Below are positions 19,370 through 47,626 of a DNA stretch of 64,000 bases, in pieces. Below the pieces are notes generated by a model. It was not told where the DNA came from, searched no databases, and worked only from the letters and a program-made list of their open reading frames with translations. Position numbers and translations under genes: made by a program. How positions within the stretch are numbered: position 1 is the first letter of the stretch; each line of letters begins with the position of its first letter. The stretch is taken from positions 3,844,001 through 3,908,000 of the forward strand of contig OY751485.1 of assembly GCA_963565915.1 (NCBI GenBank), read 5' to 3'. The stretch comes from Entoloma clypeatum. Lineage: Eukaryota; Basidiomycota; Agaricomycetes; Agaricales; Entolomataceae.

Positions 19370-19372
19370 TTA

Positions 19373-19470
19373 GAGCTCGTTCGCATGTCTCTTGTGCGCG
19401 AAATTTTGCGGCTGTGCACACCAACATTTGATGATGGCAAATCAGCTGGCCATCGGAGCTCGAACTGGTG
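19373..19470 (+). repeat. Left terminal inverted repeat of Harbinger element
   Basis: Pairs with 47525-47623 in inverted orientation, with scattered mismatches and small indels. Outer ends GAGCTCGTTYG; flanked by TTA. Confidence 0.8.
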
Positions 19471-21157: not shown

Positions 21158-24100
21158 TATCCCCCTTCAAGATTGCTGCTGCAATCTTCACTTGACTTTG
21201 TGTGGGGAGATTGGAGTGGGAGGTCATGGTAGCCTCCAACAAATTCGGATTTTGAAGGATTGACTGCAAAGATTCATGGTCGTGGGTATAATCTGAAGTC
21301 TTTGGACTCCAATAGAATAAAAGGATAAATAATAATAATTTAGAATGAGTTGCACCACCTTTGTTGAGCCCTCGAGTCAATCAGGGGTCATTAGACCCTC
21401 CCGATTATCACCGAGGTTCCAACGGAGGTAGGGCAGCTCGTATCAAGTCGGATTTTGACTTGTTGTTGGACGCGTGCCAAATTGTTGAATGCGCGTGGTC
21501 ACGTGGTCACGTGAGGTCACAGGACCTCGTTGATTTGTTTGATCGTTTATCGCTCGTTGATAAACAAGCTTCTTGGTGATCACCACCACCTTTCGAGGCT
21601 CTTCCATGAGCCTCGTCTCTCGTAGCTCGACGCCTACCTGCTTGACAACCGGGGCACGTTCAGTGCTGAGCGACGTTAGTCGCCCACCATCGTCAAGACT
21701 CACAGGGAGCGCGAATTGGAGAGGGACGAGGGCATTTCTGCCCTCCATTGTCCATTGGGGGGGCTGATAGCTGAGGTGAAGGCTCGGACGCCTGCACAGG
21801 GGCATATGAAGGTGCGTGGCACCTTCACTAGTACCAGAGAATGACACAATGCATGTTGTTCATTGTTTACTGACATCTTTTTTCATTTGAGGGACAATGT
21901 CCCTCTAGGATTTCTTTTTTCATTGTTGGTCGACTACTGGGAGTTGACCCCGTCTCGTTACACATCGATGAGGAGAGCTTCAGCTCGTCTTCGTCGACTG
22001 CTGCTTCATTCACCAATGCCGCCCCATTGCTGACGTTTGTCATCGACAGACGACTCCTGGTTGAGGGGTGATTGTTGTCCCTCCATTCTTGTCGGTCGAC
22101 CACCTTCGTGTCGACCCTGTTCCATTACGCATCGACAAGAGGAGCTTCGGCTCGTCCTCGTCAATGCCTTTGACATCATGCCATGCTGTCCCAATGCCAG
22201 CGTTCGTCGTCGTTTAGACAACTCCTGGTCGAGGGATGTACATTGTCCCTCCGTCTTTTCCTCAGTCGACTCCTTCGAGTCGACCTCGTCCGGCTACGCC
22301 TCGAGAAGGGCGAGCTTCGGCTCGATTTCCCGTCGACTTCGACTTCTGCCGATGCCATCCAAATGCCAGCGTTTTGTTGCAGTGACGGGCGGTTGGCGTC
22401 TATGACCAGTGCCGGGCACTGGTCGGTTGGGGACGCACAATTTGCGCATCTCCATGTCTGAGAAGGTAGAGGGGTACCTTCCTCCTGTAGTGGGGACGAC
22501 GCCATGGGCGTCGTTTGTTGTCATTGACGATATTTTGTTTGAGGGACAACTGTCGTCCCTCTAGGTTCCTCATTTCCTATTGGTCGACTCATTTGAGTCA
22601 ACCTCGAGTCCTTGCATGTCAATGAGAGCAAGCTTCGGCTCGTACTAGTGTCGACTGCTCTGATATCCCCTAACACCGTCCAACTGCCAGTGTTTATCAA
22701 TGCACGGAGGCCTTGGACGTGCATTGTTGCACGTCCCAGACATGCATCATTGTGCGTTGACTGGGTTTACAAAGGTACATGGTACCTTCTATGTCAAATG
22801 GGGACGGCGCATGAGGCGTCGTCCGTCGTTAATTAACGACTCTTGTTCGGGGGGTGACTGTCATCCCCCTAGGTCCTATCTCCATTATAAACTGACTCAT
22901 AAGTCAGTTCCTCTATGACGAGGTGCAGGGAACGTTAGGTTCCCTGTGGCGACTAGATGGTCATCTGATTGCTGAGGTATCAACGCGACGCGATGCAGGT
23001 TCCTTTGTACCTGCTTGGTATTCATCGAGTATGTTGGGATACCTTGTACCCAATTAGAGTACATGGACGGTGCCATCGGCGCCCTCAATTCAATCACAAT
23101 TTCTTCAACTAGAATGACATCTTGTGTCATTTGCGAGATCAGTGGGAGATGCTGGGGCAATTGCTACCCCATTTCCTCCCCTTCTTGCTTTATTCCTACT
23201 TCTGAAGCACATCTCGAGGGTCCCAAGTTGGCCCTCTTTTTGCCAGTTGGGGACAATCATTTTCCCCTGTCGCGTTTCACGACTTTTTCTTTTCCAAATG
23301 ATGTGTTGTCATTTTGGAAACTGGATGATATTACATCTCCAGTTTTGTTGGGGAGACCTTTTGAATTCCCCAGGTCCGTTTTCTGGACGACATTCATTGT
23401 TGTCCAATGTTCTTTTCTCTTGTACTGACTTCATGTCAGTATTTATCACCATCTCAGGCTCAGATGAGCCTGAAGCTTTCGGAGGTTCTATTGAACCTTC
23501 TTGACCTCTCTGTGGCATTTTCACGCTGTTCGGTAATTGTTACCAAAAATGACTGGTGTCATCCTATATCTCTATTTAACCAAATCAATTTGGTTAACCA
23601 TTCTATCATAACCAAGGGGTCTCTTGACTCCTCCATGGTTGACGACGACCACATCTTTGGTCATTCTCATCATGGATGACTCAAGAGTCATCCTTGGTGC
23701 AGGTTCTTTCGAACCTGCTTGGTTTTGTGGCACATTTTCTTCCAACATGCAAGGTGTATTGACACCTTGTATATTACGAAGTGGTGCTGTTATACCACCT
23801 GTCATTTGATGACTATTGTGGGAATGACACCTTTCGTTCCCACTGGTTCTCATGTTTCACGGTCATCTCTGTCTGTGCAGGTTTATTTAAACCTGCTTGT
23901 TCCGTTTTTGGGGTGGTTTCGTGGGACAGCTATGTTCCCATTTCCTCCCCTTCTTGCTTCATACTACGACGAAGCACATCAGGGTTCCTGTGAGGCAATT
24001 TCCCTCACTTGTCCTCTGGGGATAATTTATCCCTTGTCATTTGCAACGACCTTTTTTATTCTTCCAGATGATGGTATCTGTGTATGCCATCTTTATATTG

Positions 24101-24808
24101 GGGCTTATATTCCCCAAGTCGTGGTCCACAACTTTGCATTTAACAAACAATATATGTTCATTTTTTATTGGCGAGACTTTTGCCAAGTATATTATCTTTG
24201 GCGAGCTTAGCTCGCCATGTTGTTTGTTCATTTCTGGGGTTCGCAAGAATCCCCATGTTGACATGAACCTCTCATAAATGACATGTTGTCATTTCTCTCT
24301 TTCTTCGGCATGAACATCTTTTGTGCCTTTCATACGATGATATCTCAGTATGCCATCTATGTACATGTTGTATGGGGACATATAATCCCCATGTCGCAGT
24401 TTGCGACTCTTAGTTCAATGAACTATAGGCATTTTTGTTGACAAGATCCTTTGCCACCTATACTTTCTTTGGCGAGCTTAGCTTGCCATATTGTCAGTTT
24501 ATTTTTGGGGTTCATGTTGATCCCCATGTCGTTCACATGAATGACAACTATACCAGTCTTCATTACTGGTACTATATGAGACAACAACCCATTGTTATCG
24601 TCAACTTCATTTTTTTAAATGACATATTGTCATTCTTGTATCATAAATGACACATTGTCGTTTCTACTTTACTTTCGACGGTGTTGGTTCTTCAACCTCA
24701 CGCCATCCTTTCTATTTTATTGCCAGAAGGTACATGGTACCTTCCTCGTGTATTGTAGATGGCGCTATCGCCATCTATAGTCTCTTTGTGACTATTTCAT
24801 AGTACAGC
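21158..24808. repeat. Hairpin array, segment 1
   Basis: From about 21480 onward nearly every 30-50 bp contains a short perfect inverted repeat, each of different sequence. Checked examples: GAGGGAC/GTCCCTC 21889-21905 (loop 3), ACGACGCC/GGCGTCGT 22496-22514 (loop 3), GAGGGAC/GTCCCTC 22541-22561 (loop 7), AAGGTAC/GTACCTT 22772-22788 (loop 3), TTAACCAAAT/ATTTGGTTAA 23576-23597 (loop 2), GGATGACTC/GAGTCATCC 23674-23693 (loop 2), GCAGGTTC/GAACCTGC 23699-23718 (loop 4), GCAGGTTTA/TAAACCTGC 23877-23896 (loop 2). A 7-bp stem with a loop of 3-9 is expected by chance about once per 2.3 kb, so density is tens of times above chance. No convincing gene. Confidence 0.85.
21889..22870. repeat. Degenerate tandem modules within the hairpin array
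   Basis: A block led by a GAGGG...CCCTC hairpin recurs at about 21889, 22063, 22231, 22541 and 22850. Each is followed in the same order by a GTCGAC-type dyad, a GAGCTTCGGCTCGT-type dyad and a CCAATGCCAGCGTT-like motif. Spacing is about 170 bp, then about 310 bp. Module copies differ in arm sequence but keep arm pairing. Confidence 0.65.
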
Positions 24809-24959
24809 TTTTTTTTTTTTTTTTTTTGGTGTCAACAATTTATATACTGGTACCCTGAGGGCAGTCCGGTCGCCTACTACTACAAGTTGGCAGTAAAGAA
24901 TTTTAACATGCGTGTGGGCTAGCACAGAAATGTCCAAAAAATAGAAAAGATGGTACAGC

Positions 24960-26429
24960 TGTAAGGGCAAGCCCCTAGAGGATTAGAGATCTTAGCAAGG
25001 AAGTCATTTCTTCTATCCTTGTTTCTTTCTGTTCCTCAACTCTGCCCATACAATGTCAAGACAATCCTCCTTTTTGTTGACTGCTCTCGCAACTCCATCA
25101 CCCTCCTATAACCTCCGATGCTGCTCCGATGCTGCTCCGATCTACTCCGAAATCTCTCCACCTGTTCTGACTCTCCTCCATCCACCCCCACTGGGTTCCA
25201 ATGTTCCGAAGCCTTGTTCAGGATAGTTCCCTCTGATGGATTTCCATCCATCTTACCGTAAGGGCAACATCGCTTTCATTGGTTTCACTAACACCAAGGT
25301 CCATCTTACCCTCCATATTCCTATATCCTGGTACCTCCATCGGAGCTCCGCACTCCTCCGATATAGCTCCGCACTTTTCCGACATAGCTCCGCACTTCCT
25401 GCACACTTGACACTGTCGTTTCTCCATCGGAGCTCCACATGTTGAGAATACATTCTAGACGGATGTCTCGACAGTCAATCACATGTCTATAAACATGTGT
25501 ATTCCCATATGGAGTTACATATGGAAGTGTTCTAGACTTAGAACAATCTAGACTCGCTCTAGATCCCTGACTCATTAGATATGTGTCAGAGGTACATAAC
25601 ATATGACATGTTATGTCACATCATGTGCTTGTCACACTATATGACTATAAGTCACATATTACCATATATGTGAGTTTATGGTTCTGCGACAGAACTCAGT
25701 TTGTACTTGTTTGTACATGGTCTGTGCGCATCCTTGTAGGTATAAATACTCGATGTATCTGTATCTGCAAATATAGGACTTTTACCAAGTACCTTCATCA
25801 CTCAAGCTCTTCTCGCTCTCCTTGCTTCCAATGTGAGTATCTTACCCAGGCTTCCCTGCGTATGTAGGTGTGCTGTTTCAATACCACATTTCTCCATGCC
25901 CAGCGATACAGGCAATATCCCTTCCCTTCTCCCTTCTTCTCCCTTTCACATTCTCTTTCCACCACCTCCGACGATTTCCGATGATCTCCGACGATTCCCA
26001 ACATACCTCCGGCGTATCTCCGATATTCCGACGGCCTGTTCTCTGCCCTTCGGTCTTTCGACATGACCTTATTACTTCAAGTCCATGCACGGTACAATAC
26101 ATCACTTATATATTTATCTCTTCAACCCCCATCTCCGACGTCCTCCGATCCGCTCCGCTTTTCAGAGCGGATATCTTATTTCAAATATTCCTACTATTTC
26201 ATATATTCTCATTGCCATTCCGCTTCCATTTCCAATTCCCTTTTTCTATATATCTGCTTCGGTTGCAGGGGATTCCTTAGAGTTTTCTCTTTGGATCTCC
26301 CTTGCAAGGTACGATATATTGTTGTTTAGTAGTCTTTAATCTAATCTTTGGATCTCCCTTGCAAGTCGTCCAACGTCGGAGTCGCTTCGGAGCACTTCGG
26401 AGTTGTTGGATCGTAAGGTCGCCCTTACA
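24960..26429 (+). mobile_element. Solo LTR, 1.47 kb, TSD ACAGC
   Basis: Starts TGTAAGGGC and ends GCCCTTACA, the same tips as the chromovirus LTR at 38097, and has the same GGATCTCCCTTGCAAG blocks near its 3' end, but is three times longer. Target duplication ACAGC at 24955-24959 and 26430-26434. Copy B of the surrounding DNA (33683) carries the unoccupied site with one ACAGC, proving the borders. No gag or pol inside; it is full of TCCGA motifs. Confidence 0.8.
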
Positions 26430-26634
26430 ACAGCGATAAGATGCAATCAAGGGACTACAGAGGAGAGCATACACAAAAGGTAACACAATATGTAGAGAGA
26501 GATGACATACATGTAGCTGGATACTCCTTGAGGGGAGTATGACTTTAAGCATCCCCATGACCAGTTCACACCTCCCCATCATCACGGCCATGGCCAGAGG
26601 CAGGGCTTTCCGATGAGTACCGGTTTCCCCAGTC

Positions 26635-27430
26635 AAGGGACATACATGGAGGTTGAGCCCAGATGGCTCGCCCCTCGAATATTGGGCCATGATCCAGCCC
26701 CGGTCAAAACGGTGCTGCCAAAACTGACAGCGTGGAGAGTTGGCAGTGTGAGGTTTGCTGCAGTTCTTGCAATGAGTGTTGTGAGGACAAGGAGTCCCCT
26801 CAGTGGTGGGAGGAACGGGAGGGTTCGCATCAGGGCGTCCCTTGCAGCAGGTGACAAGAGAGCGATGGTTTTCTTCGCGGTGAGGACCCCTACAAATGGG
26901 GCAGAATACGCACATGGAGTTGCAGAAGTTCGTGTTATGTCCCCACAAACAGCAGCGGGTGCAGAAAGGCATACCAATCTTCATGGAGGCCTTTCGGAAG
27001 AGGATGCCCGCGATGCAGAAGACTTGAGGATGAGGGGTGGCATGACCCGCACGCCGAGTCCCACACCCAGTGAGCAACGGGAGCTCAAAACGGGTGTCTT
27101 CGATTGGAAGCAGACCGTTGTCCCCACATTTAGGGAGCAGTTGATGAATGTCTTCATCCGGGAGCCAGTTTGGGAGTCCCAGATGTCGAAATAGATGGTG
27201 CATGTGTCGGCGCACCTGGAATCATGAACGATCCGGGGTGGAGCTGCAAGGCGGACGCTGTCTTTGAAGACAGAAGAGTGGAGGGCGCTTTTAGCGTCCT
27301 TGGAGGTGATAGGTCTGTCACCGCGGTAAAATGGGACACCTACAAGTTTACAGAATGAGCGGGATGAAGGCACCTCGCATTGGACTGTGGATCCTTCGGG
27401 AACGACAGAGTGTATGAAGGTTTCCAACCT
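26635..27430 (-). pseudogene. LINE ORF1 fragment, copy A
   Basis: Minus-strand frames carry paired zinc knuckles (CTRCCLWGHNTNFC, CPICRGPHREENH, CKNCSKPHTANSPRC) and FWQHRFDRGWIMAQ, the C-terminal signature of Tad-like ORF1 proteins. It keeps about 110 bp near 27000-27110 that copy B lacks. The frame shifts at about 26990, so it is broken. Confidence 0.6.
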
Positions 27431-27518
27431 GGAGAGGTCGGAGGGGGAAGGGACGCTGGTTGTGGTGAGGCAGAGCCCACCGTAAGCCAGGCAGAAGGAT
27501 TCGATTTCATATTACAGC

Positions 27519-28416
27519 CTTTAAGACTGTAAATTGGGAAGGGAAAAATCTTGTGTTGCGGGATTATGTGGTATGATATAGGTGCCGTTGTCACCTATTT
27601 GTCAGGGGAGGTGTCCCCTCCTCTGCCCCCTTCCAAAATGTTCTGTGGGTTTCTTGGAATCCCCGCTTTCCCCCCTTCTTGCCTCATTCACAACGAAACA
27701 AATTATTGGGGGGAGGTTGAGTTTTTGAGACACTACAATTGTCTCAGAGGACAATTTCTATCCTCCACAGAATGTGGAAATGACAGACTTGGTGTCTGTC
27801 TATTCTGTCAGATGGGTCTCTATGAGTCTCCATCCATTACAAATTATATGGAGGACACTTGTGGTCCTCCCTCGTCTTCTTTGGCAGGACTTTTTGGTGC
27901 CCTGCATGTTGCCAACTTTATACTTGGCAAAATTTGACCTCTCGAGGCAACATAGTCACCTCAGGTTTTACGGAGGACACTTTTGTCCTTCCTTTTGTCA
28001 TTTCGCGGCGACCACTTTTAGTGGGCTGCCTGTCGCCGACTTTATGTTCGGCGCGATCTGATTCCAATGTGGTGTCTGTCACCACAGCTTTCGACGAACC
28101 ATCGCAGATGACAATAACCTTGTCATCTACTTTTGCAACCTTAGCGACTTTTGTCGCTACAGTTTCGGCATCTATTGCCATAACTTTAGTTTCTCCATGG
28201 ACGATCTTTATCTCATCCATTTTGTCATTTGCAACAACAATTGTTGTTGCTGTAGCAGCTACTGTAGCTGCTGGTTCTCGACATTCGCAGATGACATTCT
28301 TGTCATCTATTGTTGATTTATTGCAGACGACAACTTTGTCGTCTTCCTTTGCAACTTCAGCGACATTTGTTGCTGCTATCTCAGCACTTTGTGCTGTAAT
28401 TATTTTATTTCTGTGG
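27519..28416. repeat. Hairpin array, segment 2 (copy A)
   Basis: Continues the array beyond LINE A. Examples: a perfect 20-bp palindrome at 28231-28250 (GCAACAACAA/TTGTTGTTGC), GATGACA/TGTCATC 28290-28307, AGACGACAA/TTGTCGTCT 28325-28344. Here centres are about 24-36 nt apart. A minus-strand ORF crosses it but its residues mirror the dyads. Homology to copy B stops sharply at 28416. Confidence 0.82.
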
Positions 28417-28929
28417 CACGGAGTCAAAAGTAAATTCGTCAGGGGACTCGTCGGCGGAATCGGTGGCAAAACGTTCAGAGTATTTCCTCTGTAAATCTCT
28501 AAGGAATCTCTGTTCCTGCGCGTCTGTTGGTCTCGAGAAGGGGTCAAGTCTCTCGCCTCGCGCCCAATGGTTGTACTCGGTCTGTTGTTCTTCGGTGGTG
28601 AAGTGGGCATAGATCTGCTGCTTCGAGTAAGATGTGATGATGTGACTCTGGGACGTCTCAATGTGAGTGTTCTAATCAATCTTCTGATAACGGTTGTCTG
28701 GACACCGATAAACTCTCTGATCTCTGTGATCCGACCTGTCTGAGGTCCTTCTTGAACGCGAAAGCTTTCGAGTTCATTCTGTCGGGCGTTGTAATGCGCG
28801 ATCTGGTGTTGCCGAGCAAGATGGATGCTCTCTGCTAACTCGCTGTGGGCGCGATGCTCGTCGTTGTCTAGTTCTTCGTCAAGCACCTGCTGTAGGATGC
28901 GACGGATCTCCGATTCGATGTACTGCTGG
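28417..28929 (-). CDS. Unidentified partial ORF left of the gap
   Basis: Minus strand from the gap edge: a helical, Gln/Arg/Glu-rich protein segment (IESEIRRILQQVLDEELD, HSELAESIHLARQHQIAHYN), then after a frame change near 28620 a further coding-like stretch (QQTEYNHWARGERLDPFSRP, FLRDLQRKYSERFATDSADE) up to the junction at 28417. Not recognised. It lies at a sharp breakpoint with the array, so it is probably part of another inserted element whose rest is in the gap. Confidence 0.4.
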
Positions 28930-29129
28930 NNNNNNNNNNNNNNNNNNNNNNNNNNNNNNNNNNNNNNNNNNNNNNNNNNNNNNNNNNNNNNNNNNNNNNN
29001 NNNNNNNNNNNNNNNNNNNNNNNNNNNNNNNNNNNNNNNNNNNNNNNNNNNNNNNNNNNNNNNNNNNNNNNNNNNNNNNNNNNNNNNNNNNNNNNNNNNN
29101 NNNNNNNNNNNNNNNNNNNNNNNNNNNNN
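28930..29129. other. Assembly gap of 200 N
   Basis: Exactly 200 N, which suggests a fixed-size placeholder. It falls between two copies of the same hairpin-array segment. Confidence 0.95.
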
Positions 29130-30980
29130 GCAGAGAACGAGTGCAATATATATCCGCAGGGGTGCCAGTCTCCATTCACATCTTGTTGGCGCAGTACTGC
29201 TCCTGTCGCCCATTTTGATGCATCAGATTCTATGATGAACGGTTTGTCAGTGTTCGGCATCAACAATACCAGTGATTCCGCGAATTTGTCCTTTAATGTG
29301 TCAAATGCCGTCTGGCAGTCTTCGCTCCATTCCCACTCCTGATCCTTCTTCGTCAGATCATTCAGGGGTTTGGCAGTGTCCGAGTAGTGTCCAATAAACC
29401 TTCGGTAGAAGTTTCCAAATCCAAGGAAAGATCTGACTTGCTTGACAGTCGTGGGTTCTGGCCATTTTGCTATCCCCGATAACTTAACGGGGTCCATTGC
29501 GATTTCGTTTTCTTGATAATCAGTCCGAGGTATTCGCACTGCCTGACTCCAAATTCGCATTTTTCCAGGTTGAGATAGAGGTCATTCTCTATCATTTTCC
29601 TTAGTACGCGGAGCGTTCGTTCGGTGTTGATTTTGTCATTGACTGAGAAGATGAAGATGTCGTCCAAATAAATGAGCAACCATCCTTCCTCAAGTTCTTC
29701 TTTGAAGATTTCATTCATCATCGCCTGAAACGTGGGTGGCATGCCTGCTAACCCAAAGAAGGCAACCAAGGGTTTGTACAACCCTCGATTGGTTTTGAAT
29801 GCAGCCTTCCATTCATCGCCAGGTTTGATCCGTACATTGTTGTATCCCAACGCATGTCCAGTTTAGTAAAGACCTTTGCTCCTTTCAGTTTGTCCAATAA
29901 ATCTCCGACCAGGGGCAACGGGTATGCGTTTTTCACCGTTCCCTCGTTCAATCGCCGATAGTTCTGACAGGGTCTGAGCTTATCCGAGTCCTTTTTAGCC
30001 ATGAAGAAAAAGGGTGATGCCATTGGTGATTTCGAGGGTCTGATGTACCCCTTTCGAAGGTTCTCATCAAGGAATTCGTCCAATTTAGTTTGTTCTTCCG
30101 GTGACAAAGGATAAACCTTGCAGTCTTTCGGGATGAAGTCCGGTTTTAAGTCAATTGTGTGGTCCCATGTTTTGTGTTCCGGTAATCTCTCAGATGCCGC
30201 TTTCTCAAACACCTTCTGATACTGATCGTATCGTTCTGGTAGTTCTTTCTTTGGTTTGTCCGCAGTGTCCGTGTTGTGTGTCAGTTTCTGGGAGATCGAG
30301 GTTTTGGCTTGGATCCAAATATCCTCAATGGGTTCGTCCGTTGTGACATATGTCCTGAATAGGTCTAGGTCATCGTCTGATTCTTTATCTATTCTTTTCA
30401 AGATAGGTCCATTTGCTGGTAGAGCCTCCTTTTTTGGTTTAAGGGTCTCTTCATCATCAATTTCTTCTATTGTTGCGAAGATCCTTTGTTTAGGTTCTTC
30501 TTTCATCCATGCTGTAATTGCAATGGGTTTCTTGTCTTTTGATGCTAAGAGCTCATCAAATTTCTTCCTCATGACCCCTGCCAGGGTCTTCTTGAACCTG
30601 ATAGTTTCAATATCCAAGGTTCCTCTTTCCCAATCAATCTTCGGGTTGTATTGTTTTAACCAGGGTAACCCCAAAATAGCGGTTTCCTTTCCAAGTCCAG
30701 TTACCAAGAATCTGACGTTGAGTTCTTTGTCATCAATCCAGATTTTCTTCCATGTACAATGGGTGATCGTTCCTTCTTTGTTCTTTGTTCTGTCCACATT
30801 GAACACACGAATGGGCTTTAGTAACGGGATAAGCTCCATTCGGTTAGCTGTGGCGAACTTCTGATCCAAGAAGGTTCCTCCTGCTCCTGAGTCTATCAGG
30901 GCGTTTATCTTTAGTCTTTCATCGATGCTTTCTCCTTCTCCTGACATTGAAATGGGGATCGAAAAAGATTTGTCATTCAT
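29130..30980 (-). pseudogene. Gypsy pol: protease, RT, partial RNase H, two frameshifts
   Basis: Protease ALIDSGAGGTF, then GLPWLKQYNP; RT with SPMASPFFFMAKKDS, KLDMRW and YLDDIFIFS; RNase H start [13 protein letters not shown] near 29210. Frame breaks: one G is missing near 29855 in the codons after DMRW, and one base near 29535 before IAMDPVKL. Otherwise close to intact, so decay is recent or sequencing error in homopolymers is possible. Ends at the gap. Confidence 0.8.
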
Positions 30981-31047
30981 GTCGGCTACAATTACAGGTG
31001 ATAGGGAGATTGAAACTGAGCGGGGGCTGACATCGGTACAGGCCGCT

Positions 31048-31950: not shown

Positions 31951-32243
31951 TTCTACAAGTGGAGTCTTTGGGGTGTCTGGGGTCAGTCTGGGTGCAGCAA
32001 CAGCAGCAGCTGGCGGCGGTGGGTTTCGTCTCGGAGAGAGGTAAGAGGGTGATGTGGGTTGACTGGTACGAAAGAGGAGGTTACTCTTCTGTACGGTGTC
32101 GGCGGTGGTCGTGGTGTGACAGGTGCGTCAACGAACTCCTGTTCGTCTTCTGAGTCGGACGGGACTCCAAAGGTGGATCGTCAGGGAAGAATCTTTGCAT
32201 CTAAAACCGCGGTGGGTTGACGATGTTGAGCAGCTTGACCTTT

Positions 32244-34663: not shown

Positions 34664-34752
34664 TTCATAGTACAGCCTTTAAGACTGTAAGTTGGGAAGG
34701 GAAAAATCTCGCGTTGTGGGATTATATGGTATGATATAGGTGCCATTGTCAC
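33646..34752 (-). pseudogene. LINE ORF1-type protein fragment, copy B
   Basis: An open minus-strand frame that begins in flanking array DNA (34752) and crosses the LINE. Zinc knuckles CTRCCLWGHNTNFC, CPICRGPHREKNH and CKNCSKPHAANSPRC, then FWQHRFDRGWIMAQ. Compared with copy A about 110 bp is deleted at FFRKAS, after VGTMVC. The N-terminal part is 5'-truncated, so the apparent start codon is not the native one. Confidence 0.55.
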
Positions 34753-36161
34753 CTATTTGTCGGGGGAGGTGTCCCCTCCTCTGCCCCCTTCCAAAATGTT
34801 CTGTGGGTTTCTTGGAATCCCCGCTTTCCCCCCTTCTTGCCTCGTTCACAACGAAACAAATTATTGGGGGGAGGTTGAGTTTTTGAGACACTACAATTGT
34901 CTCAGAGGACAATTTCTATCCTCCACAGAATGTGGAAATGACAGACTTGGTGTCTGTCTATTCTGTCAGATGGGTCTCTATGAGTCTCCATCCATTACAA
35001 ATTATATGGAGGACACTTGTGGTCCTCCCTCGTCTTCTTTGGCAGGACTTTTTGGTGCCCTGCATGTTGCCAACTTTATACTTGGCAAAATTTGACCTCT
35101 CGAGGCAACATAGTCACCTCAGGTTTTACGGAGGACACTTTTGCCCTTTCTTTTGTCATTTCGCGGCGACCACTTTTAGTGGGCTGCCTGTCGCCAACTT
35201 TATGTTCGGCATGATCTGATTCCAATGTGGTGTCTGTCACCACAGCTTTCAACGAACCATCGCAGATGACAATAACCTTGTCATCTACTTTTGCAATCTT
35301 AACGACTTTTGTCGCTACAGTTTTGGCATCTATTGCCATAACTTTAGTTTCTCCATGGACGATCTTTATATCATCCATTTTGTCACTTGCAACAATTGTT
35401 GTTGCTGTAGCAGCTACTGTAGCTGCTGGTTCTCGACATTCACAGATGACATTCTTGTCATCTATTGTTGATTTATTGCAGACGACAACTTTGTCATCTT
35501 CCTTTGCAACTTCAGCGACATTTGTTGCTGCTATCTCAGCACTTTGTGCTGTAATTATTTTATTTCTGTGGATGACTTTCATGCCATCCACTTTGTCATT
35601 TGTGACAACTATATTTGCTGCGGCAGCTACTAAAGCTGCCAGATCTTCTCTATTGCAGACGACATCTTTGTCATCTAATTTCCGACCTTTAATGACATTT
35701 TCTGTCTTTGTTGCAGCACATGTTGCCGCAGAGTTTGTACTCTCTTGGACGACATTCCTTTCATCCAGACTCTTGTGTTTATGATGTTCCAACCTGCGGA
35801 CATCTTGTTTTTCAGATGCGACTATTTGAAGCACCAAATGAACTTCACAAGTTCGTTCTCCAGTGGTCATGGCTTGACCACTCTGCTTCAATATCAAGCA
35901 GACAATCTTTTCATTACACATAGAGCACAATTTTGTGCTCTTGTCGTCAGTCGACACATGTTGTCGACTTTCGCTATTCTTGCGATGTTGATGGCGGCAT
36001 TTTCGTTGCTGTCTCTTCTTCTCTACTGTGACAGAGTCTTCTGTACTCTGTCTCTCTTTCTCATTGTCTCTTTGATGGTGAATATTTCACCGTTGAGTAT
36101 CATTCTCGCCTGGGTTTTGTTGACCCAGATGTTTGCGTTTATTTTGATGATCTTCTTGTTG

Positions 36162-37121
36162 TTAATAATGAACCTGTTGTTCATTACTTGCAGTCCGATG
36201 TGGTCTATTTGACCCATCATTTCTGGGCAATGAGGTTTTTTCATCTTGAGGGTTATTAGAACCCTCTTGGCTATGATTTTCATGTGGGCGACTATTCTGT
36301 CGCCATGGTTTTTGTGAACTTTGGAAGTTCAGAGAACTTCCAGCCCATTTTGGGCTCTTGCTGTGCATCCACAGTTGACGGCGTCTTTCAGACCACAAAT
36401 GTGGTGCCAATTCTTCTGTTGAGGGTAAAGGTACCCTCGGAAATCTTGTTTCCATTGTTGGTGGTCGTGTTCTATGGGTTGGTTGGGATTTCGCAACCCA
36501 TTCTGACCACCACAAAGGCTGTTGATCTGCCTGCGATGAAGGTCTTTGAATTTCAAGACCTTCTTCTGAAGTTGACGGAACTTGTGTTCCGTCAAGACTG
36601 TCTATGTCTCTTTTGCAAACGGGACCTATGGAGTCTTTACTCCATATTTTGAGACAACTGTTGTTGTCTTCCTTCGCCGTTTTCAATTTGGCGATGATTT
36701 CCAGAGTCTCTTCATTGACTCTGGAGGAGGAGGTTATTTTAACCTCCGTTTCTTGATTCATATTAACAGAAATGTTCCTGTTCTCTTCTCTAGACTCTAG
36801 GAGAGAATTGGAAGACTTATAAGTCTTCCGTTCTAGTCTGTCGACTACATGTCGTGGACTTTTCAAACTTTCAATTGAAGACTTAATAGTCTTCAGATCT
36901 TCACAATCCACTTCGGAGTGGTGGTCAACACCATCTCCATGGTTCAGAAGTTGATGAGGCTCATAAGCCTCATGGTTTCTTTCTGTGACAATATCTTGAT
37001 GTTGTGCAGCTTCTATCTCTGAAGACTTTAATGTCTTCACATCTCTGTTCTGTTGAATGCAGTGATGTTCTTCATCACCTCTCAGAATGCTGAGAGGTCC
37101 AGATGGCTCGCATTGAGTCAT
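36162..37121 (-). other. Long minus-strand ORF within the array, 319 codons
   Basis: Open frame of 319 codons in the same orientation as the element. The composition is hydrophilic (Ser, Glu, Asn, His) and residue patterns follow the dyads, e.g. repeated LK-(T/S)-IKS. No motif recognised. It may be remnant coding DNA remodelled by the hairpins or chance. Confidence 0.25.
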
Positions 37122-37206
37122 TTCTCCATGTGCAACATGAGAAGCTTGTCACAAATATTCCATATATGCAATTGAAGGTTCTTCATGAACCTTCGGCATG
37201 TTCTTG

Positions 37207-37878
37207 TTAATTCTTGAAGACTTCAAAGCCTTCAGTTCTGATCTGAATAGTCTCTTTGTTTGAAGACATAACTGTCTTCATATCTCCATTCCGTTGAACG
37301 GAGTGATATTCTAAGTCACCTCTCCAATTGTTGAGAGGTTCAGATGGCTTGCAATGAGCCATTTCTCCATGCGCAACATGATAAACATGTTGCAAACTTT
37401 CCGCATGGATGTTAGAAGGTTCTTCATGAGCCTTCGGGATGTTTGCGTTCATTTTGGAAGACTTCACAGCCTTCCTCTTCATCTTAAAGACATGCTCGGC
37501 ATGTCGGACCACTTCTCCATAGAGGTCCTTGTAATATGCTAGAGGTTTATGAGCCTCTATAGGTGCATATGGCTTTGTGCACCTGTCCAACTCCATATTG
37601 AGTTCACGGACAAATGACCACTTGAAGTGGTCAACATACTCTCTTTCGTTGCATAGTATATCGCAACCATACACCTCATTCACACTTGCGAGAGTGAATC
37701 TATGAGCTTCATAGCTCATACACTTGAGATGGTCATTATCAATAACCATCGGAATGATGGACCATAGTTCCATCTTGAAATCCATGATTAGCCTGTGGTC
37801 CAGCCATGGCATCTCTTTCACAACTCTGCGAATAGTATCTCGATACCGAATTCTCGGTTCAACATAAGTTGACTGCAA
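37207..37878 (-). other. Long minus-strand ORF within the array, 223 codons
   Basis: More protein-like than its neighbour: MPWLDHRLIMDFKMELWSII, NEVYGCDILCNEREYVDHF, YYKDLYGEVVRHAEHVFKMK. No family recognised. It lies toward the 5' side of the minus-oriented element and could be the remnant of a gag-like gene. Confidence 0.3.
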
Positions 37879-38096
37879 CTAGGCAGTCATGTCCACCCTA
37901 GTAGACTTTGCTACATGTAATGTAGTACTTGCAGAATATGTAGACAAGGTCTCCAGTTTGCGACAACTGGACCTCAAGCCTTTTGAGAGGCTTCTTGATG
38001 CGTTTGACACGACGGAAGGGCTCAGAAATGAGCCATTTCCATATAAGGAAATGCCAGCTGGCAGCAAAGGTGCCAGCTCATCCCGAAAAAGGGAGC

Positions 38097-38530
38097 TGTA
38101 AGGGCAACCACTTTCACTTTTCACTTTTCCTTTACTTTCCTCCTTTCCTTTCTATTCCACCATCTCCGACGTCCTCCGATCGTATCCGCTGTCTCCGACA
38201 TCTTATCCGCCTCTCCGCATCTGACGACTCCGCCCCCATCCGCTACTCCGCACGTCGGATCGCAGGTACTATCATTCATCTTGTTTCCATTCATCCTTCA
38301 TCGCTACTCCCGATCATTGCTCATCATTCATGTGTCTCGTTTTATCTCTTATTTCATATCTCATTTTACTATTTATCGCAGCTAGCTTGCAGGGGAATCC
38401 TTAGAACTTTCTCTTCGGATCTCCCTTGCAAGGTATGTGTTGTATTACTTATTAGACTGCTCAATCTAAACTTCGGATCTCCCTTGCAAGTATCTGAGTT
38501 TGAGTCTTGGATCGTAAGGTCGCCCTTACA
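38097..38530 (+). repeat. 5' LTR of chromovirus
   Basis: 434 bp, TGTAAGGGC...GCCCTTACA, rich in TCCGA/TCCGC motifs. Contains TATTTAT at 38370 and AGAACTTTCT at 38403-38412, and two copies of CTTCGGATCTCCCTTGCAAG about 60 bp apart. Confidence 0.92.
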
Positions 38531-38532
38531 GT

Positions 38533-38542
38533 AGAAAGTTCT
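38533..38542 (+). promoter_or_regulatory. Predicted self-primer binding site
   Basis: AGAAAGTTCT, three bases after the LTR, is the exact complement of AGAACTTTCT at 38403-38412, which lies about 30 bp after a TATTTAT box and could be the mRNA 5' end. No TGG tRNA-type site is present. This is the Tf1/sushi arrangement in which the transcript's own 5' end primes reverse transcription. The same pair occurs in the copy at 60434-64000. Confidence 0.6.
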
Positions 38543-38691
38543 CATCTAATTGGACCGGGTCCGATTGCATCGTTGTCACGATTCCGCGCTTCGGAGTAGC
38601 TTCGTCCGCGTCCGACTCCGATACATCTCACACCCCTTCCAGTTCTTCTAATTACCTCTCCGTAACCGGTGATTCTGCTCCGCGCATAGTA

Positions 38692-39846
38692 ATGGACGAC
38701 CCCAATCGCCTTGAACAGCTCGAGCACGAGTTCCAGGAACAACGTCAAACTCTCGCTGATATCTCGACTCAACTTGACCAACTCCTCCTCGCCTTCAACG
38801 CAATTCCTGCCCCAGCTCCGCCACCTATCCCACCTGCTCCCGCACCCGCACCTCCACCTGCTCCGCTCGCTCCGGCCAATCCGGGCGTGCGTCGAGCAAA
38901 ACCCGCCAATCCGTCAGACTTCGACGGATCGCGCGCAAATGGCTGGACCTTTCTAAACTCCTGTGAATTGTTTATGGGGCTGGCTCCGGAACAGTTCGCA
39001 GACGACCACGCTAAAATTTATTGGGCCTTATCTTTCATGAAGAGTGGACGCGCAGCACGCTTTGCGGATCGCATTATCCGACAAGAGCGGAGGACCGGTG
39101 CTCCGCCTTATCGGACTTGGGTGGACTTCCGCGCCGTCTTTACAACGGAGTTCACTCCGAAGAATGAGGAACAGGACGCGAGACTGATCCTCGAAGGAGA
39201 ATCCTATTATCAAGGTCAACGGGATGTCGAGACCTATATTGACGAGTTCAAAGACTACATTGACAAAGCAGGCTATCAGGAGGATACCAATATAGTACTC
39301 AAATTCCGCCATGGTCTCCGTTCCGACATTCAGAACGAGATCGCCACCCTGACCCACGGACGGCCTGCGGACGACAACCCCGATGAGTGGTACTCTGCAG
39401 CACGAGTCAACGACGACAATAGAATTGCCAACAAAGCCTTCAAAGCCACTGCTCCGACCCGCACATCTGCCTTCCGCAACGTCGTCGGACCAAGAGTACC
39501 TGGCACCTCAGTATTCCCTCGCCCCTACATTCCATTCACTCCGCGTCCAGCTCCGCTCGCATCCGCAACCGCTCCGCCGACAAGGGACCCTAATGCAATG
39601 GACATTGATACTTCACGCGTCAAAGGCAAGAATGCCAATGCATGCTTCAGATGTAACAAAACGGGTCACTTCAGTCGTGAATGCCCCCTTCGCTTCGACG
39701 TCCGATTCATGACGATGGAGGAACAAGACGAGTTTATCATGGAACAACTCGTGGTCAAGGACGCGGCGGAAGGCAACTCCGTTCCGCCCACGGAGTCTGC
39801 GGAGTCGGAGGGAGGACAGGAGGATTTTCCTCCTCACAACGAGTGA
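38692..39846 (+). CDS. Chromovirus Gag
   Basis: 384 residues. N-terminal coiled region (LEQLEHEFQEQRQTLADIS), Pro/Ala-rich linker, the conserved capsid region (FLNSCELFMGLAPEQFADDH, YTVYEEFKTRF-like DFRAVFTTEFTPKNE, VETYIDEFKDYIDKAGY), and a zinc knuckle CFRCNKTGHFSREC at about 39640-39690. Ends in a TGA at 39844; pol is in the -1 frame and overlaps its 3' end by up to 166 nt. Confidence 0.92.
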   Translation: MDDPNRLEQLEHEFQEQRQTLADISTQLDQLLLAFNAIPAPAPPPIPPAPAPAPPPAPLAPANPGVRRAKPANPSDFDGSRANGWTFLNSCELFMGLAPEQFADDHAKIYWALSFMKSGRAARFADRIIRQERRTGAPPYRTWVDFRAVFTTEFTPKNEEQDARLILEGESYYQGQRDVETYIDEFKDYIDKAGYQEDTNIVLKFRHGLRSDIQNEIATLTHGRPADDNPDEWYSAARVNDDNRIANKAFKATAPTRTSAFRNVVGPRVPGTSVFPRPYIPFTPRPAPLASATAPPTRDPNAMDIDTSRVKGKNANACFRCNKTGHFSRECPLRFDVRFMTMEEQDEFIMEQLVVKDAAEGNSVPPTESAESEGGQEDFPPHNE

Positions 39847-42800
39847 ACAGTGCGCCCTCGTTGTCTACTAAAAATCGTTATGCTGCCTTATTTATGGAAC
39901 AATATGATCCTATACCCTCCATCTCTAAGCCTGCAAACGATCCTATAGTCGCACCCAACTCCGCAAACCCTATCCGCATCCGCTTCTCTAAGTGGGAGCG
40001 GCGGCTTCCAAAACAATATGTTCTCGCCGCAGCCGCTCGCTCCGACAATTCCCTCGAACTAGACATAGTTCTCGAAACTACCGACACTAAAGACATACTA
40101 TCACAAAAGGCCTTACTCGACAGTGGGGCAACAGGATCGTTTATTGAACGTACTCTGGTCGAGAAACACCGACTCTCTACTCGAAAACTACAACGCGCAA
40201 TTCCGGTATACAACATCGACGGAACTCCGAATGAGGCCGGAGCAATAACGGAGGTGTTGGACGTAGTGCTCCGCTATCGGGATCACTCGGAACGGACCCA
40301 GCTTGCAGTCACAAGTTTGGGAAAACAAGGAATCGTGTTAGGCTTCACTTGGCTCAAAGAACACAACCCCGAGGTAGATTGGACTTCAGGGGAAGTGAAG
40401 ATGAGCCGGTGTCCTGCACGATGTCGGACATGCCAACAGGAGGCAGCCCAAGAGCGGAAGGAGCGGAAGTTCGAACAAGTCCGCATCCGAGCCTGTCGGA
40501 TGGGTTCCACTCCGACGTCCGGTCTAGAGGAGGAGGCTCCACGCGGCCCATGGGTGGAGGATGTCACAGAAGGAGAAGAAACGGAGGAGTTAGCGGAAGA
40601 CGATGAGGAAGAGGATGAGTTTGAGGAGGGAGACCGCCTTTTTGTCGGAACAGTACCTGCGGAGGCGGAGTTCATCCGCGCTTCATCCAATATCTCGCAA
40701 CGTCTATCGGAGGCCTTCCTCAGTAACCAGAAACCCAAATCTTTCCGCGATTCCGTACCAGACCACTTGTTTGATTTCGAAGACGTATTCTCAAAGACCT
40801 CTTTCGACACCTTACCGGAAGAGCGGACGTGGGACCACGCCATTGAACTTGTTCCGGACGCCTCTCCGGCGGGTTGTAAGGTATATCCGCTCGCCCCGAA
40901 CGAACAGAAAGAACTCGACGCGTTTTTGGAGGAAAACCTTGCAACTGGTCGGATCCGCCCTTCCAAGTCTCCGATGGCATCTCCGGTGTTCTATATCAAG
41001 AAAAAGGATGGCTCCCTTCGTCTTGTACAAGACTACCGGTCACTCAATTCCAAAACTATCAAAAACAAGTATCCGCTTCCGCTCATATCCGAACTGATCA
41101 ATAAACTTCAACGCGCTCAATACTTCACCAAACTCGACATCCGCTGGGGTTACAACAATGTACGGATAAAGCCCGGAGACGAGTGGAAGGCCGCTTTTCG
41201 GACCAATCGCGGACTCTATGAACCATTGGTGATGTTCTTCGGCCTCACTAATAGTCCATCCACATTCCAGACTATGATGAACGAGATCTTTCAGGACCTT
41301 ATCACTGAAGGTGTAGTTTGTGTTTACCTTGACGATATACTCATCTTCACGGAGACCCTTGCGGAACATCGGAGGGTCACACGGATTGTACTGGAACGAC
41401 TTCGCGAACACAAACTCTATCTAAAACCAGAGAAATGCGAGTTTGAGCAAACGCGCATTGAATACTTAGGCCTTATTATTGAACAAGGACGCGTAGAGAT
41501 GGATCCGGTGAAAGTAGCGGGGGTCGCGGAGTGGCCTGCTCCGACAAACGTCCGAGAAGTACAGTCCTTTCTGGGGTTCACTAACTTCTATCGCCGTTTT
41601 ATTGAAGGGTTTTCGGACATCGCGCGCCCTCTTTTCGAGCTCACGAAGAAGGGGCACCTCTGGTCTTGGAAGGAAGGAGAAGTGTCCGCATTTGCGGAGT
41701 TGAAGCGGAGGATTACATCCGCTCCGATCCTGGTCTTAGCTGATCATCGAAAGGAGTGGCGGGTAGAAGCGGATAGCTCGGACTTTGCAACCGGAGCAGT
41801 ACTGTCCCAACCAACAGAGGACGGTAAGTGGCACCCTGTCGCATTCTATTCCAAAAGCCTCAGTCCGGTGGAACGCAACTACGAGATCTATGACAAGGAG
41901 ATGTTGGCAGTGGTCCGCGCATTAGAGGAGTGGAGGCACTTCCTTGAAGGAGCGGAGAAGACAGTGGAGATTTGGACGGACCACAAAAATCTTGAGTACT
42001 TCATGACAGCTCAAAAACTAAATCGACGACAAGCTAGATGGTCCTTATACCTCGCTCGTTTCGATTTTAAAATGCACCATCGACCTGGAAAGTCAATGGG
42101 CAAGTCCGACGCTTTGTCCCGACGAGCGGACCACGGAGACGGATCGCGGGACAACGAAAACATCATCCTTCTTCGACCAGAATTGTTTGCAGTGCGAGCA
42201 ATGCGTGGGGTAACTGTTCAAGGGGAAGAACGCGACGTCCTCTGCCAGGTCCGACAGGGAATCCGAGAGGGGCTACTGGAGGATAGTGTGGCGGAGGTCG
42301 TCAGATCCCTTCCGACCGTCGGAGCGGGGTCTGTCCGAAGTGCGGAGTGGAGGCAAGCGGAAGGTTTGCTCTACTTCAGGGATCGTATCTATGTTCCTAA
42401 TAATCCCCAACTGCGTCATCGGATCCTCACACAACACCACGACACTCCGGTGGCCGGACATCCGGGACGGTGGAAAACCTTGGAACTGGTGTCGCGCAAT
42501 TACTGGTGGCCACACATGTCTCGTTTAATAGGTCAATATTGCAAGACATGCGACTCATGCCTCCGCACCAAGGTCCGACGCACTCCGCCCTCCGGAGAGC
42601 TCAATCCACTACCGGTCCCCACGGAGCGGTGGCAAGTAACCAGTGTTGACTTCATTACTGAACTACCAGAAGCCCACGGCTACGACGCTATCATGGTGGC
42701 AGTGGACTCAGTAGGGAAGCGGGGACACTTCATCCCGACGCACTCCGACATCTCCGCACTCGGGACTGCACGCTCCTATATTCAAAACGTCTGGAAACTC

Positions 42801-43751
42801 CACGGACTACCGGAGGCCATTGTCTCCGACCGCGGACCACAGTTTGTCGCCAAGTTCACGCGCGAACTATATAGGCTACTTGGCATTAAGATTGCTGCCT
42901 CGACAGCCTACCATCCGCAGTCGGACGGACAGACGGAGCGGGTCAATCAAGGATTGGAACAATATCTTCGCCTATTCGTCAATGAACGTCAAGATGATTG
43001 GGACGAATGGCTTCCGATGGCTGAATTTGCATACAACAACCATGTTCACGCATCGACACGTCAAACTCCGTTCTACATTGACACCGGCCGCCATCCGCGC
43101 ATGGGATTCGAACCTCGCGAGAAGCGGACGGAAATCGAGGCGGTAGCGGATTTCAGCGAGCGGATGAAGTCCGCTCTGGAAGAGGCTCGCGCAGCACTAA
43201 CAAAGGCAAAGGACGACATGGCGCGATACTACAACCAGCATCGGAGCACCACTCCGACATTCCGCCCGGGGGACAAGGTCTTTTTAGACTCATCGGACCT
43301 CAAAACCACCCGACCCACAAAAAAACTTGCACATCGGTACGTAGGCCCTTTCCCAGTGGTCCGACCTGTCGGAACACATGCCTACGAACTTCGCCTTCCC
43401 CCTTCCATGTCCCGCATTCACCCAGTATTCCACGTCGTCAAACTTTCACTAGTTCCCGACGACCCTTTCCGACGCCAAGTCCGCCCTCCTCCGCCTCCGA
43501 CGGTAGTGGGAGAAGAATTGGAGTATGATGTTGAAAACCTCTTGGACAGCCGACTGCATCGAGGCAAGCTTCAATTCTTGGTCAAATGGAAGGGATATGG
43601 CTACGAAGAGAATTCCTGGGAAGCAGAAGACAATGTCCACGCTCCGCGCCTAGTCCGCGACTTCTACCGACGTCATCCGGGAGCTCCGCGTCGGATCTCC
43701 GCTGCGATATTCGACTCATTTCGCCTGACACGTCGAGACGCCGTGCCTTGA
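39681..43751 (+). CDS. Chromovirus Pol: PR-RT-RH-IN-chromodomain
   Basis: Open frame of 1356 codons from 39681; real translation probably enters by frameshift or reinitiation near the gag stop. Protease ALLDSGATGSF; RT with KLDIRWGYNNVRI and VYLDDILIF (about 41320-41345); RNase H VEADSSDFATGAVL and [11 protein letters not shown]; integrase HHCC (HHDTPVAGHPG...CKTCDSC), D,D,E core (SVDFITELPEA, IVSDRGPQF, GQTERVNQ); C-terminal GPY/F-like PFPVVRPVG and a chromodomain VENLLDSRLHRG, FLVKWKGYGYEENSWE at about 43530-43660. No stop or shift, so potentially active. Confidence 0.95.
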   Translation: MPPSLRRPIHDDGGTRRVYHGTTRGQGRGGRQLRSAHGVCGVGGRTGGFSSSQRVNSAPSLSTKNRYAALFMEQYDPIPSISKPANDPIVAPNSANPIRIRFSKWERRLPKQYVLAAAARSDNSLELDIVLETTDTKDILSQKALLDSGATGSFIERTLVEKHRLSTRKLQRAIPVYNIDGTPNEAGAITEVLDVVLRYRDHSERTQLAVTSLGKQGIVLGFTWLKEHNPEVDWTSGEVKMSRCPARCRTCQQEAAQERKERKFEQVRIRACRMGSTPTSGLEEEAPRGPWVEDVTEGEETEELAEDDEEEDEFEEGDRLFVGTVPAEAEFIRASSNISQRLSEAFLSNQKPKSFRDSVPDHLFDFEDVFSKTSFDTLPEERTWDHAIELVPDASPAGCKVYPLAPNEQKELDAFLEENLATGRIRPSKSPMASPVFYIKKKDGSLRLVQDYRSLNSKTIKNKYPLPLISELINKLQRAQYFTKLDIRWGYNNVRIKPGDEWKAAFRTNRGLYEPLVMFFGLTNSPSTFQTMMNEIFQDLITEGVVCVYLDDILIFTETLAEHRRVTRIVLERLREHKLYLKPEKCEFEQTRIEYLGLIIEQGRVEMDPVKVAGVAEWPAPTNVREVQSFLGFTNFYRRFIEGFSDIARPLFELTKKGHLWSWKEGEVSAFAELKRRITSAPILVLADHRKEWRVEADSSDFATGAVLSQPTEDGKWHPVAFYSKSLSPVERNYEIYDKEMLAVVRALEEWRHFLEGAEKTVEIWTDHKNLEYFMTAQKLNRRQARWSLYLARFDFKMHHRPGKSMGKSDALSRRADHGDGSRDNENIILLRPELFAVRAMRGVTVQGEERDVLCQVRQGIREGLLEDSVAEVVRSLPTVGAGSVRSAEWRQAEGLLYFRDRIYVPNNPQLRHRILTQHHDTPVAGHPGRWKTLELVSRNYWWPHMSRLIGQYCKTCDSCLRTKVRRTPPSGELNPLPVPTERWQVTSVDFITELPEAHGYDAIMVAVDSVGKRGHFIPTHSDISALGTARSYIQNVWKLHGLPEAIVSDRGPQFVAKFTRELYRLLGIKIAASTAYHPQSDGQTERVNQGLEQYLRLFVNERQDDWDEWLPMAEFAYNNHVHASTRQTPFYIDTGRHPRMGFEPREKRTEIEAVADFSERMKSALEEARAALTKAKDDMARYYNQHRSTTPTFRPGDKVFLDSSDLKTTRPTKKLAHRYVGPFPVVRPVGTHAYELRLPPSMSRIHPVFHVVKLSLVPDDPFRRQVRPPPPPTVVGEELEYDVENLLDSRLHRGKLQFLVKWKGYGYEENSWEAEDNVHAPRLVRDFYRRHPGAPRRISAAIFDSFRLTRRDAVP

Positions 43752-43762
43752 AGGGGGGGTGA

Positions 43763-44196
43763 TGTAAGGGCAACCACTTTCACTTTTCACTTTTCCTTTA
43801 CTTTCCTCCTTTCCTTTCTATTCCACCATCTCCGACGTCCTCCGATCGTATCCGCTGTCTCCGACATCTTATCCGCCTCTCCGCATCTGACGACTCCGCC
43901 CCCATCCGCTACTCCGCACGTCGGATCGCAGGTACTATCATTCATCTTGTTTCCATTCATCCTTCATCGCTACTCCCGATCATTGCTCATCATTCATGTG
44001 TCTCGTTTTATCTCTTATTTCATATCTCATTTTACTATTTATCGCAGCTAGCTTGCAGGGGAATCCTTAGAACTTTCTCTTCGGATCTCCCTTGCAAGGT
44101 ATGTGTTGTATTACTTATTAGACTGCTCAATCTAAACTTCGGATCTCCCTTGCAAGTATCTGAGTTTGAGTCTTGGATCGTAAGGTCGCCCTTACA
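43763..44196 (+). repeat. 3' LTR of chromovirus
   Basis: 434 bp, same length and by eye the same sequence as 38097-38530; followed by GGAGC. Confidence 0.92.
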
Positions 44197-44399
44197 GGAG
44201 CTCTGAGTGAACTCCTGGGGGCCAGACAACTCAAAAGAGACCATAAGCTGTGTGTAGGTGACACAGCTAGGCACTAAGCAAAAGAGGAGGCTTCAAAGTG
44301 AAGCCTCTGGGCCAGATGGGGTAGGTGCAGCTAGAGAGCTGATAGCAATGGGGGTGTTCCCCTGTAGCAGTTGATAGCAGTTAAGGATAGCTTAAAAAA
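44197..44399. repeat. Hairpin array, segment 5
   Basis: Between the chromovirus and the right LTR of the host element: GGAGCTCTGAGTGAACTCC, GTGTAGGTGACAC, GAGGCTTCAAAGTGAAGCCTC. This shows that the array fills the host element to its right end. Confidence 0.78.
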
Positions 44400-44581: not shown

Positions 44582-44586
44582 GTATT

Positions 44587-47623: not shown

Positions 47624-47626
47624 TTA

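Follow-up and report, generated by a model that had tools for sequence, protein, structure and literature searches.

A retroelement filled with short hairpins

We examined a 64,000-nucleotide stretch of the Entoloma clypeatum genome (contig OY751485.1, positions 3,844,001 to 3,908,000; referred to here as the window), in which a dense array of short hairpins had been noticed, and found that the array is the interior of a long terminal repeat (LTR) retroelement at 20976–44581. The original prediction took 21158–44399 as the unit, but the natural unit is the whole element. Its anatomy, with LTRs, a long open reading frame (ORF) of unfamiliar type and hairpins throughout, is firm (Table 1). The two LTRs are identical at 174 of 182 positions, the 8 differences all being transitions, and they have the TG...CA ends of terminal repeats, the LTR at 44400 starting with TATAAC, one transition from TGTAAC. 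A polypurine tract of the kind found in LTR retrotransposons is present (GAAGGGGGA in minus-strand orientation), and among 16 copies its edge was identical over 11 bases in 9 (TATCCCCCTTC, plus strand) and had one or two changes in the other 7.

A search of the genome (60 Mb, 20 contigs) with the LTR gave 40 matches, of which 34, including both in the window, overlap the LTR. Four further elements showed, by eye, target-site duplications of 5 bp: AGCAT (C15), CTGGA (C5), AGAGG (C10) and CGTTC (C1). Only elements with both outer edges pairable on one strand were considered here, and two opposite-strand pairs were set aside; these have element ends 12–15 kb apart (C5:109666 with C5:124624, and C2:1908237 with C2:1920156), with 5-base flanks, read in element orientation, that agree or nearly so, by inversion or chance. 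The copy at C2:367000-377830 runs directly from window position 24804 to 34662 and from 38097 to 44197, which gives an element of about 7.7 kb without insertions.

Counting perfect stems of at least 7 bp with loops of 2–10 nt, we found a density of 10.7 hairpins per kb for the array and of 0.3 per kb for window 1–20000, which has 6 all told. The seven kilobases made up of array for at least 80% (21001–25000 and 35001–38000) hold 7, 11, 8, 7, 12, 14 and 12 hairpins, while dinucleotide-preserving shuffles, 5 for each kilobase, gave means of 0.0–1.2 per kb. The right flank mostly holds 0–3 per kb, the exceptions being 47001–48000 (8, at a foldback repeat) and 49001–50000 (5). Chance or base composition was rejected as the source of the hairpins, as the array counts are far above those of the shuffles; the predicted excess of dyads over both shuffled sequence and the gene island was thus borne out, and the densities are not equal. 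The non-redundant array (7,260 bases) has 81 stems of at least 7 bp when loops of up to 12 nt are allowed. Stems of at least 6 bp number 128 in 8,142 array bases, with one duplicated segment counted in, and their centres have a median spacing of 53 nt and a lower quartile of 32 nt, so that the array is dense, although the spacing of 30–50 bp first proposed was slightly optimistic. All five hairpins given then as examples are present at their positions.

With loops of 3–12 nt, 21159–24808 contains 15 stems of 7 bp, 15 of 8 bp and 6 of 9 bp, compared with 1.36, 0.26 and 0.02 expected from 50 shuffles, and none of 10 bp or more; in 34690–38096 there are 22, 19, 5 and 1 stems of 7, 8, 9 and 10 bp, and none beyond. 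The gene stretch has 2 stems of 7 bp, none of 8 bp and 1 of 9 bp, where its shuffles have 1.94, 0.38 and 0.14. Stem length in the array therefore has a ceiling of 10 bp, with counts that are roughly flat from 6 to 8 bp and lack a chance-like tail. On the sense strand, 42% of the loop bases are A, and by eye no loop motif was seen beyond this A-richness (no motif search was run). The 5′ arms of the stems are rich in purines, which are the majority in 58 of the 81 array hairpins and the minority in 16; no reading considered below accounts for this bias.

The hairpins had been described as each different in sequence, but not all of them are unrelated: similar stems recur by eye, and the window array has internal repeats, diverged to 62–77% identity, that bear corresponding hairpins. 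The density is similar, 6.2–13.1 hairpins per kb, in every one of the 25 stretches with 1,200 or more aligned bases (the window included; the stretches represent fewer elements, as several belong to one element), and an artefact of a single copy was thereby rejected. No Rfam family matched at its gathering score, the single sub-threshold match having an E value of 0.28.

The sense strand is probably the minus strand, since the polypurine tract adjoins the 3′ LTR and there is one long open frame. Over 35076–37878, the longest minus-strand frame is 130–434 amino acids in each of the 12 stretches examined (P ≤ 0.01, 100 shuffles). Stop codons make up 0.5–1.0% of codons in frame, against 3.7–8.4% in the other two sense frames (6–15 stretches per piece; frames picked as open in the window). 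Indels are multiples of three in 45 of 107 cases in the ORF region; the share is 30 of 216 for positions below 25000 and 4 of 44 in the remainder. In the noncoding part, 21159–24808, no sense frame exceeded the shuffles in 6 stretches (P 0.09–0.68). With the nested element removed and no frame mended, the ORF would have about 1,020 codons by arithmetic between its ATG (44244) and its stop (35076), and in the copy L085 the frame is open over 482 codons, MASFELSG... included. Synonymous-codon shuffles of three sense frames gave means of only 0.8–1.2 hairpins (at most 4 in 200 shuffles) where 11, 15 and 7 are observed; thus the protein does not force the hairpins, and we rejected them as a by-product of protein sequence.

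The ORF pieces matched no Pfam family above the cut-off, with weak matches to Omp28, DUF2239 and CARD_2 (E 0.019–0.071), and no PDB sequence. No gag domain was found in them in the Pfam search, which a diverged gag would escape, and no pol domain was found outside the nested elements; the element thus has no recognised gag-pol of its own. A claim of selection on the protein was dropped, as the ratio of nonsynonymous to synonymous polymorphism (pN/pS) was 0.42–0.80 in frame and 0.59–1.24 in shifted frames. A single-sequence structure model of the N-terminal piece was unusable (mean predicted local distance difference test score, pLDDT, of 32).

Table 1. Features of the hairpin-bearing element and its surroundings, in window coordinates
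Start	End	Strand	Feature	Remarks
20971	20975		Target-site duplication GTATT, left copy	Identical to 44582–44586
20976	21157	-	LTR, 182 bp, TGTAAC...GTTACA	3′ LTR on sense strand
21158	21170	-	Polypurine tract adjoining 3′ LTR	Sense GAAGGGGGATA
21159	24808	-	Hairpin array, noncoding, downstream of ORF on sense strand	Hairpin counts; minimum folding energy difference (MFED) 34.9%, sense
24809	27505		Later insertion holding LTR-like stretch 24960–26429	Related copy at 33535–34663
27506	28416	-	Array segment, noncoding and then C-terminal part of ORF	Duplicate of 34664–35571
28417	32799	-	Ty3-type fragment	gag, protease, reverse transcriptase-like by eye
32800	33534	-	Array segment	Duplicate of 24074–24808
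33535	34663		Second, shorter copy of inserted sequence	
34664	35075	-	Array segment after ORF stop	
35076	38096	-	Hairpin array doubling as most of the long open frame	Frame broken in window copy
38097	44196	+	Nested Ty3 chromovirus with own LTRs	Target duplication GGAGC; gag, reverse transcriptase, RNase H, integrase and chromo models
44197	44244	-	Open-frame start	MVSFELSGPQEF... by eye in window; MASFELSG... in copy L085
44245	44399	-	Leader on sense strand	Two hairpins, of 8 and 9 bp
44400	44581	-	LTR, 182 bp	5′ LTR on sense strand
44582	44586		Target-site duplication GTATT, right copy	

Stem conservation, folding energy and later insertions

To avoid bias, stems were defined in one stretch and divergence was measured between two others, among the 25 stretches described above; these counts compare related copies, and no simple P value attaches to them. 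Divergence was 6.6% in stems, 10.8% in loops and 11.7% in the rest. Away from CpG, TpG and CpA sites, as judged in the window sequence, the values were 4.0, 9.4 and 6.7%, and for transversions 1.2, 4.2 and 2.3%. The ratio of arm to rest divergence was 0.57, while controls gave 0.91 for mirror repeats, 0.91 for complementary arms 60 nt apart and 0.79 for those 200 nt apart; since the controls fall below 1, some bias exists, yet it leaves the effect in the stems unexplained. Stems were the slower part in both halves, with 8.1% against 12.9% in the noncoding and 6.1% against 11.2% in the coding one. Split by codon position (1, 2, 3), divergence was 6.4, 4.8 and 7.0% in stems, 12.1, 9.6 and 11.8% in the rest and 7.5, 14.3 and 10.6% in loops. 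Selection acting on base pairing is the likely cause.

Covariation among the copies, which had been proposed as a check, was found, though it is modest and in close copies consists of transitions throughout. Of 125 stem states that recur in two or more stretches, 17 are Watson-Crick alternatives, against 102 of 1,809 in non-stem pseudo-pairs. The internal units of the array, which have diverged by 23–38%, still have 72–79% of their stem pairs in Watson-Crick form. Where both bases of a pair had changed, the pair was Watson-Crick in 19 of 27 cases in the window (49 of 200 once the partners were slid) and in 14 of 23 in the C2 copy (slid, 45 of 142). These counts are not independent, as the unit pairs overlap and each was scored in both directions. 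A second hairpin-rich family (L072–L081) has window 21771–22690 in common with the element; it is 73–77% identical to the window over about 900 bases and keeps 83% of the window stem pairs, against 20–36% with slid partners (10 of 12 stretches used). There are 42 genome matches to this family, 15 of them at 85% identity or more.

An earlier covariation count (85 double changes against 19.7 expected) was withdrawn because the stems had been defined in the window and the alternatives were all transitions, mostly with intermediates. Also withdrawn was an apparent difference between the strands in stem changes, with an odds ratio of 1.38, as regions disagree and counts of unique states show none, and flanking-mismatch counts, being bound to composition, were not used. 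A candidate third hairpin family at C2:377463-377798 proved not to be an array; it comprises four hairpins, next to an inserted foldback repeat, within a frame that by eye resembles gag.

The minimum folding energy difference was computed in 350-nt windows with 20 shuffles each. On the sense strand it was 34.9% in the noncoding half of the window array (10 windows) and 43.7% in the other half (9 windows), and 39.3–40.7% in five segments of four other copies. Controls from the gene stretch and the nested Ty3 element gave 0.3–5.7% (the nested Ty3 alone 3.5–5.7%), and a right-flank stretch, in 200-nt windows, reached 3.6%, z falling below -2 in 9 of the 30 windows. MFED is higher for the sense than for the antisense strand in every one of the 7 segments (P 0.005 for the window); the raw strand difference in folding energy is bound to composition and was not used.

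Besides the nested chromovirus, the element is interrupted by later insertions, and the copies C2_367000, C2_1906737 and C10_977562 run straight from about window position 24804 to about 34662, past the one at 24809–27505. The Ty3-type fragment at 28417–32799 matches DUF4939 (3.8e-08), with RVP_2 just above the cut-off and Ty3_capsid and gag-asp_proteas below it, and no repeats of 40 nt or more were found inside it; in the sequence analysed, 200 of its bases (28930–29129) read as N. It is not the clean insertion that was first proposed, as 32800–35571 repeats 24074–28416 at 95–99%: the array, together with the inserted element, is duplicated around the fragment, which looks like the outcome of recombination between copies rather than of simple insertion. 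Within the LTR-like stretch 24960–26429 of the inserted element, six perfect hairpins of 7–9 bp lie in less than 200 bases (25480–25673), and a similar six-hairpin cluster is present at C9:3606891-3607069. The foldback repeat at 47004–47421 has arms of 208 nt that are 80% complementary, with several small perfect hairpins inside. The motif TCCGA is in excess on both strands (207 in the window, 123 expected) and by eye is clustered in the LTR-like stretches of other elements (25100–26400, 38160–38620 and 45520–46200). Outside the element, matches to DDE_Tnp_4 at window 20480–20970 mark a gene, presumably of Harbinger type, which the element interrupts, and gene matches to Rax2 and adenosylmethionine decarboxylase models point to fungal DNA.

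Possible origins of the hairpins

The reading that we favour, with a confidence slightly above even, is that this is the internal region of an LTR family whose RNA folds as a chain of stem-loops kept by selection on pairing, in a manner like the genome-scale ordered RNA structure (GORS) of some RNA viruses. On the sense strand, the element would run from the 5′ LTR through a short leader, the long open frame and about 4 kb of noncoding sequence to the polypurine tract and the 3′ LTR. Its RNA would fold into short, mostly unbranched stem-loops across the coding and noncoding parts, and base pairing would be maintained by selection, perhaps because folding compacts the RNA for packaging or hides it from nucleases and silencing. 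The folded molecule is probably RNA rather than DNA; the best candidate, though unproven, is the genomic RNA, which is what folds in GORS viruses. The element is probably mobilised in trans, since neither a reverse transcriptase nor an integrase was seen in it outside the nested elements. A densely folded RNA of a non-autonomous retroelement had been among the meanings first suggested, and it fits best with the LTRs, duplications, polypurine tract, stem conservation and folding energies, though the element is not purely noncoding, as it has the long minus-strand frame.

Several observations weigh against this interpretation. G-U pairs are not preferred over A-C in shared stem-pair states (43 G-U and 55 A-C on the sense strand, in at least two stretches), and they are few among the predicted sense pairs (5–8%, against 10–14% in controls). 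In the C2 copy, the difference between sense and antisense folding has a P value of 0.21. Close copies show another Watson-Crick pair in 35 of 819 pair columns, all 35 by two-sided transitions, and 31 of these have a single-change intermediate, as independent decay at hot spots could give; post-insertion decay also makes up part of the divergence. In the second family, for stems defined in L074 and L080, a slide of -3 re-pairs as many double changes as the true register (12/22 vs 4/10 and 11/17 vs 9/12), so that double changes are not decisive there. Non-family sequence of the examined loci has 1.25 hairpins per kb, which likewise exceeds most shuffles. Plus-strand frames reach a P of at most 0.01 in 3 of 12 stretches and in one are longer than the sense frame. 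Finally, a primer binding site was looked for in the 40 bases next to the LTR, and in neither orientation was there a TGG or an 8-nt complement of the LTR, a search that left partial-tRNA sites aside.

The low share of G-U in predicted pairs, together with mismatch types that are symmetric between strands, is what copying at the DNA level would predict, and it brings in a mutational footprint, also among the meanings first suggested: template switching during reverse transcription or replication would invert short stretches and mend stems, so that hairpins pile up without function. Template switching has been reported to create and maintain hairpins, in the part of the source cited here (PMC8794818), and smaller hairpin clusters occur in other mobile DNA of the window (25235–25616 and 47051–47374). 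We consider this origin unlikely, although it remains a rival. Between 6 and 8 bp the number of stems hardly changes, and the series stops at 10 bp with no tail. Shared stem changes are mostly unpaired transitions (98 G-T or A-C states) and seldom re-paired (17 Watson-Crick states), whereas mending should yield paired changes. Little folding excess is seen in the nested Ty3 element, and the open frame persists.

The corresponding hairpins of the diverged internal repeats, and the stems that recur by eye, would also be expected if a few founding units had been multiplied by internal duplication long ago and had decayed since, with no present selection on pairing, and the 8 differences in 182 positions between its LTRs show the window copy to be of some age. 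To this account we give a still smaller chance, as stems evolve more slowly than loops and the rest with ascertainment controlled, and as the diverged units retain most of their pairs and have mostly re-paired their double changes.

The least probable is that the hairpins act at the level of DNA or protein, as cruciforms, as hairpins of single-stranded cDNA or as dispersed packaging signals bound by the element's protein: the mismatches are indeed strand-symmetric and the ORF product, with no known family above the cut-off, could be a binding partner, but the loops lack a common motif by eye apart from the A-richness noted above, sense folding is slightly favoured, and the version with packaging signals belongs within the RNA reading as a special case.

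Comparison with known systems

TR-GAG elements are LTR elements with a single non-pol ORF and a gag domain. The element described here likewise has LTRs and a single non-pol ORF, but its ORF pieces differ from TR-GAG in the lack of a gag domain in the Pfam search, which would miss a diverged one. With large retrotransposon derivatives (LARD) and terminal-repeat retrotransposons in miniature (TRIM), it shares LTRs without pol, and these elements are thought to be mobilised in trans, according to the part of the source cited here (PMC7215508). LARD and TRIM elements encode no protein, whereas this element has a long ORF, and it is a chain of short hairpins, whereas in Cassandra it is LTR-to-LTR pairing that the same part of that source describes (PMC7215508). 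Hairpins made by template switching are also perfect local inverted repeats; the cases in the cited part of that work are changes in microRNA and rRNA genes (PMC8794818), while here there are 81 stems of at least 7 bp in 7.3 kb, limited in length and slow to evolve.

Our literature searches, which covered open-licence papers and mostly their listings, met no description of such an element. Whole-genome folding is known from some RNA viruses, where it is usually tied to persistence in animal hosts. As described in the cited part of a virus survey, GORS in positive-strand RNA viruses consists of several hundred consecutive, largely unbranched stem-loops in coding sequence (PMC7642675). The element resembles it in its chain of stem-loops over coding sequence, in a folding energy that is raised throughout and in the lower diversity of paired sites (PMC7642675, in part); it differs in being an LTR retroelement of a fungal genome and in having few G-U pairs. 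MFED is given there as 15% for SARS-CoV-2 and 7.5–10.7% for hepatitis C virus; no genome mean on record there exceeds 23.4%, although peaks above 50% occur locally (PMC7642675, cited part). The window element, by a procedure similar but not identical to the one used there, reaches 35–44%. The virus stems are reported there to shift, while the element's stems are at fixed places across copies (PMC7642675, in part).

Put in its fullest form, to which we give slightly less than an even chance, the sequence analysis would describe a pol-less LTR element whose whole RNA, the coding part too, is selected to stay a chain of stem-loops with stems of 7–9 bp: GORS outside RNA viruses, with a folding excess well above the highest genome mean of the virus survey, and with a retroelement protein that matches no known family above the cut-off. 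If so, it would raise the question of how a reverse transcriptase copies so folded a template, would add a retroelement protein of an unfamiliar kind, and its many genomic copies would form a system for measuring selection on pairing. Moreover, as a fungal retroelement would then show the feature of these viruses in stronger form and with fixed positions, the cause of such folding could be separated from animal immunity.

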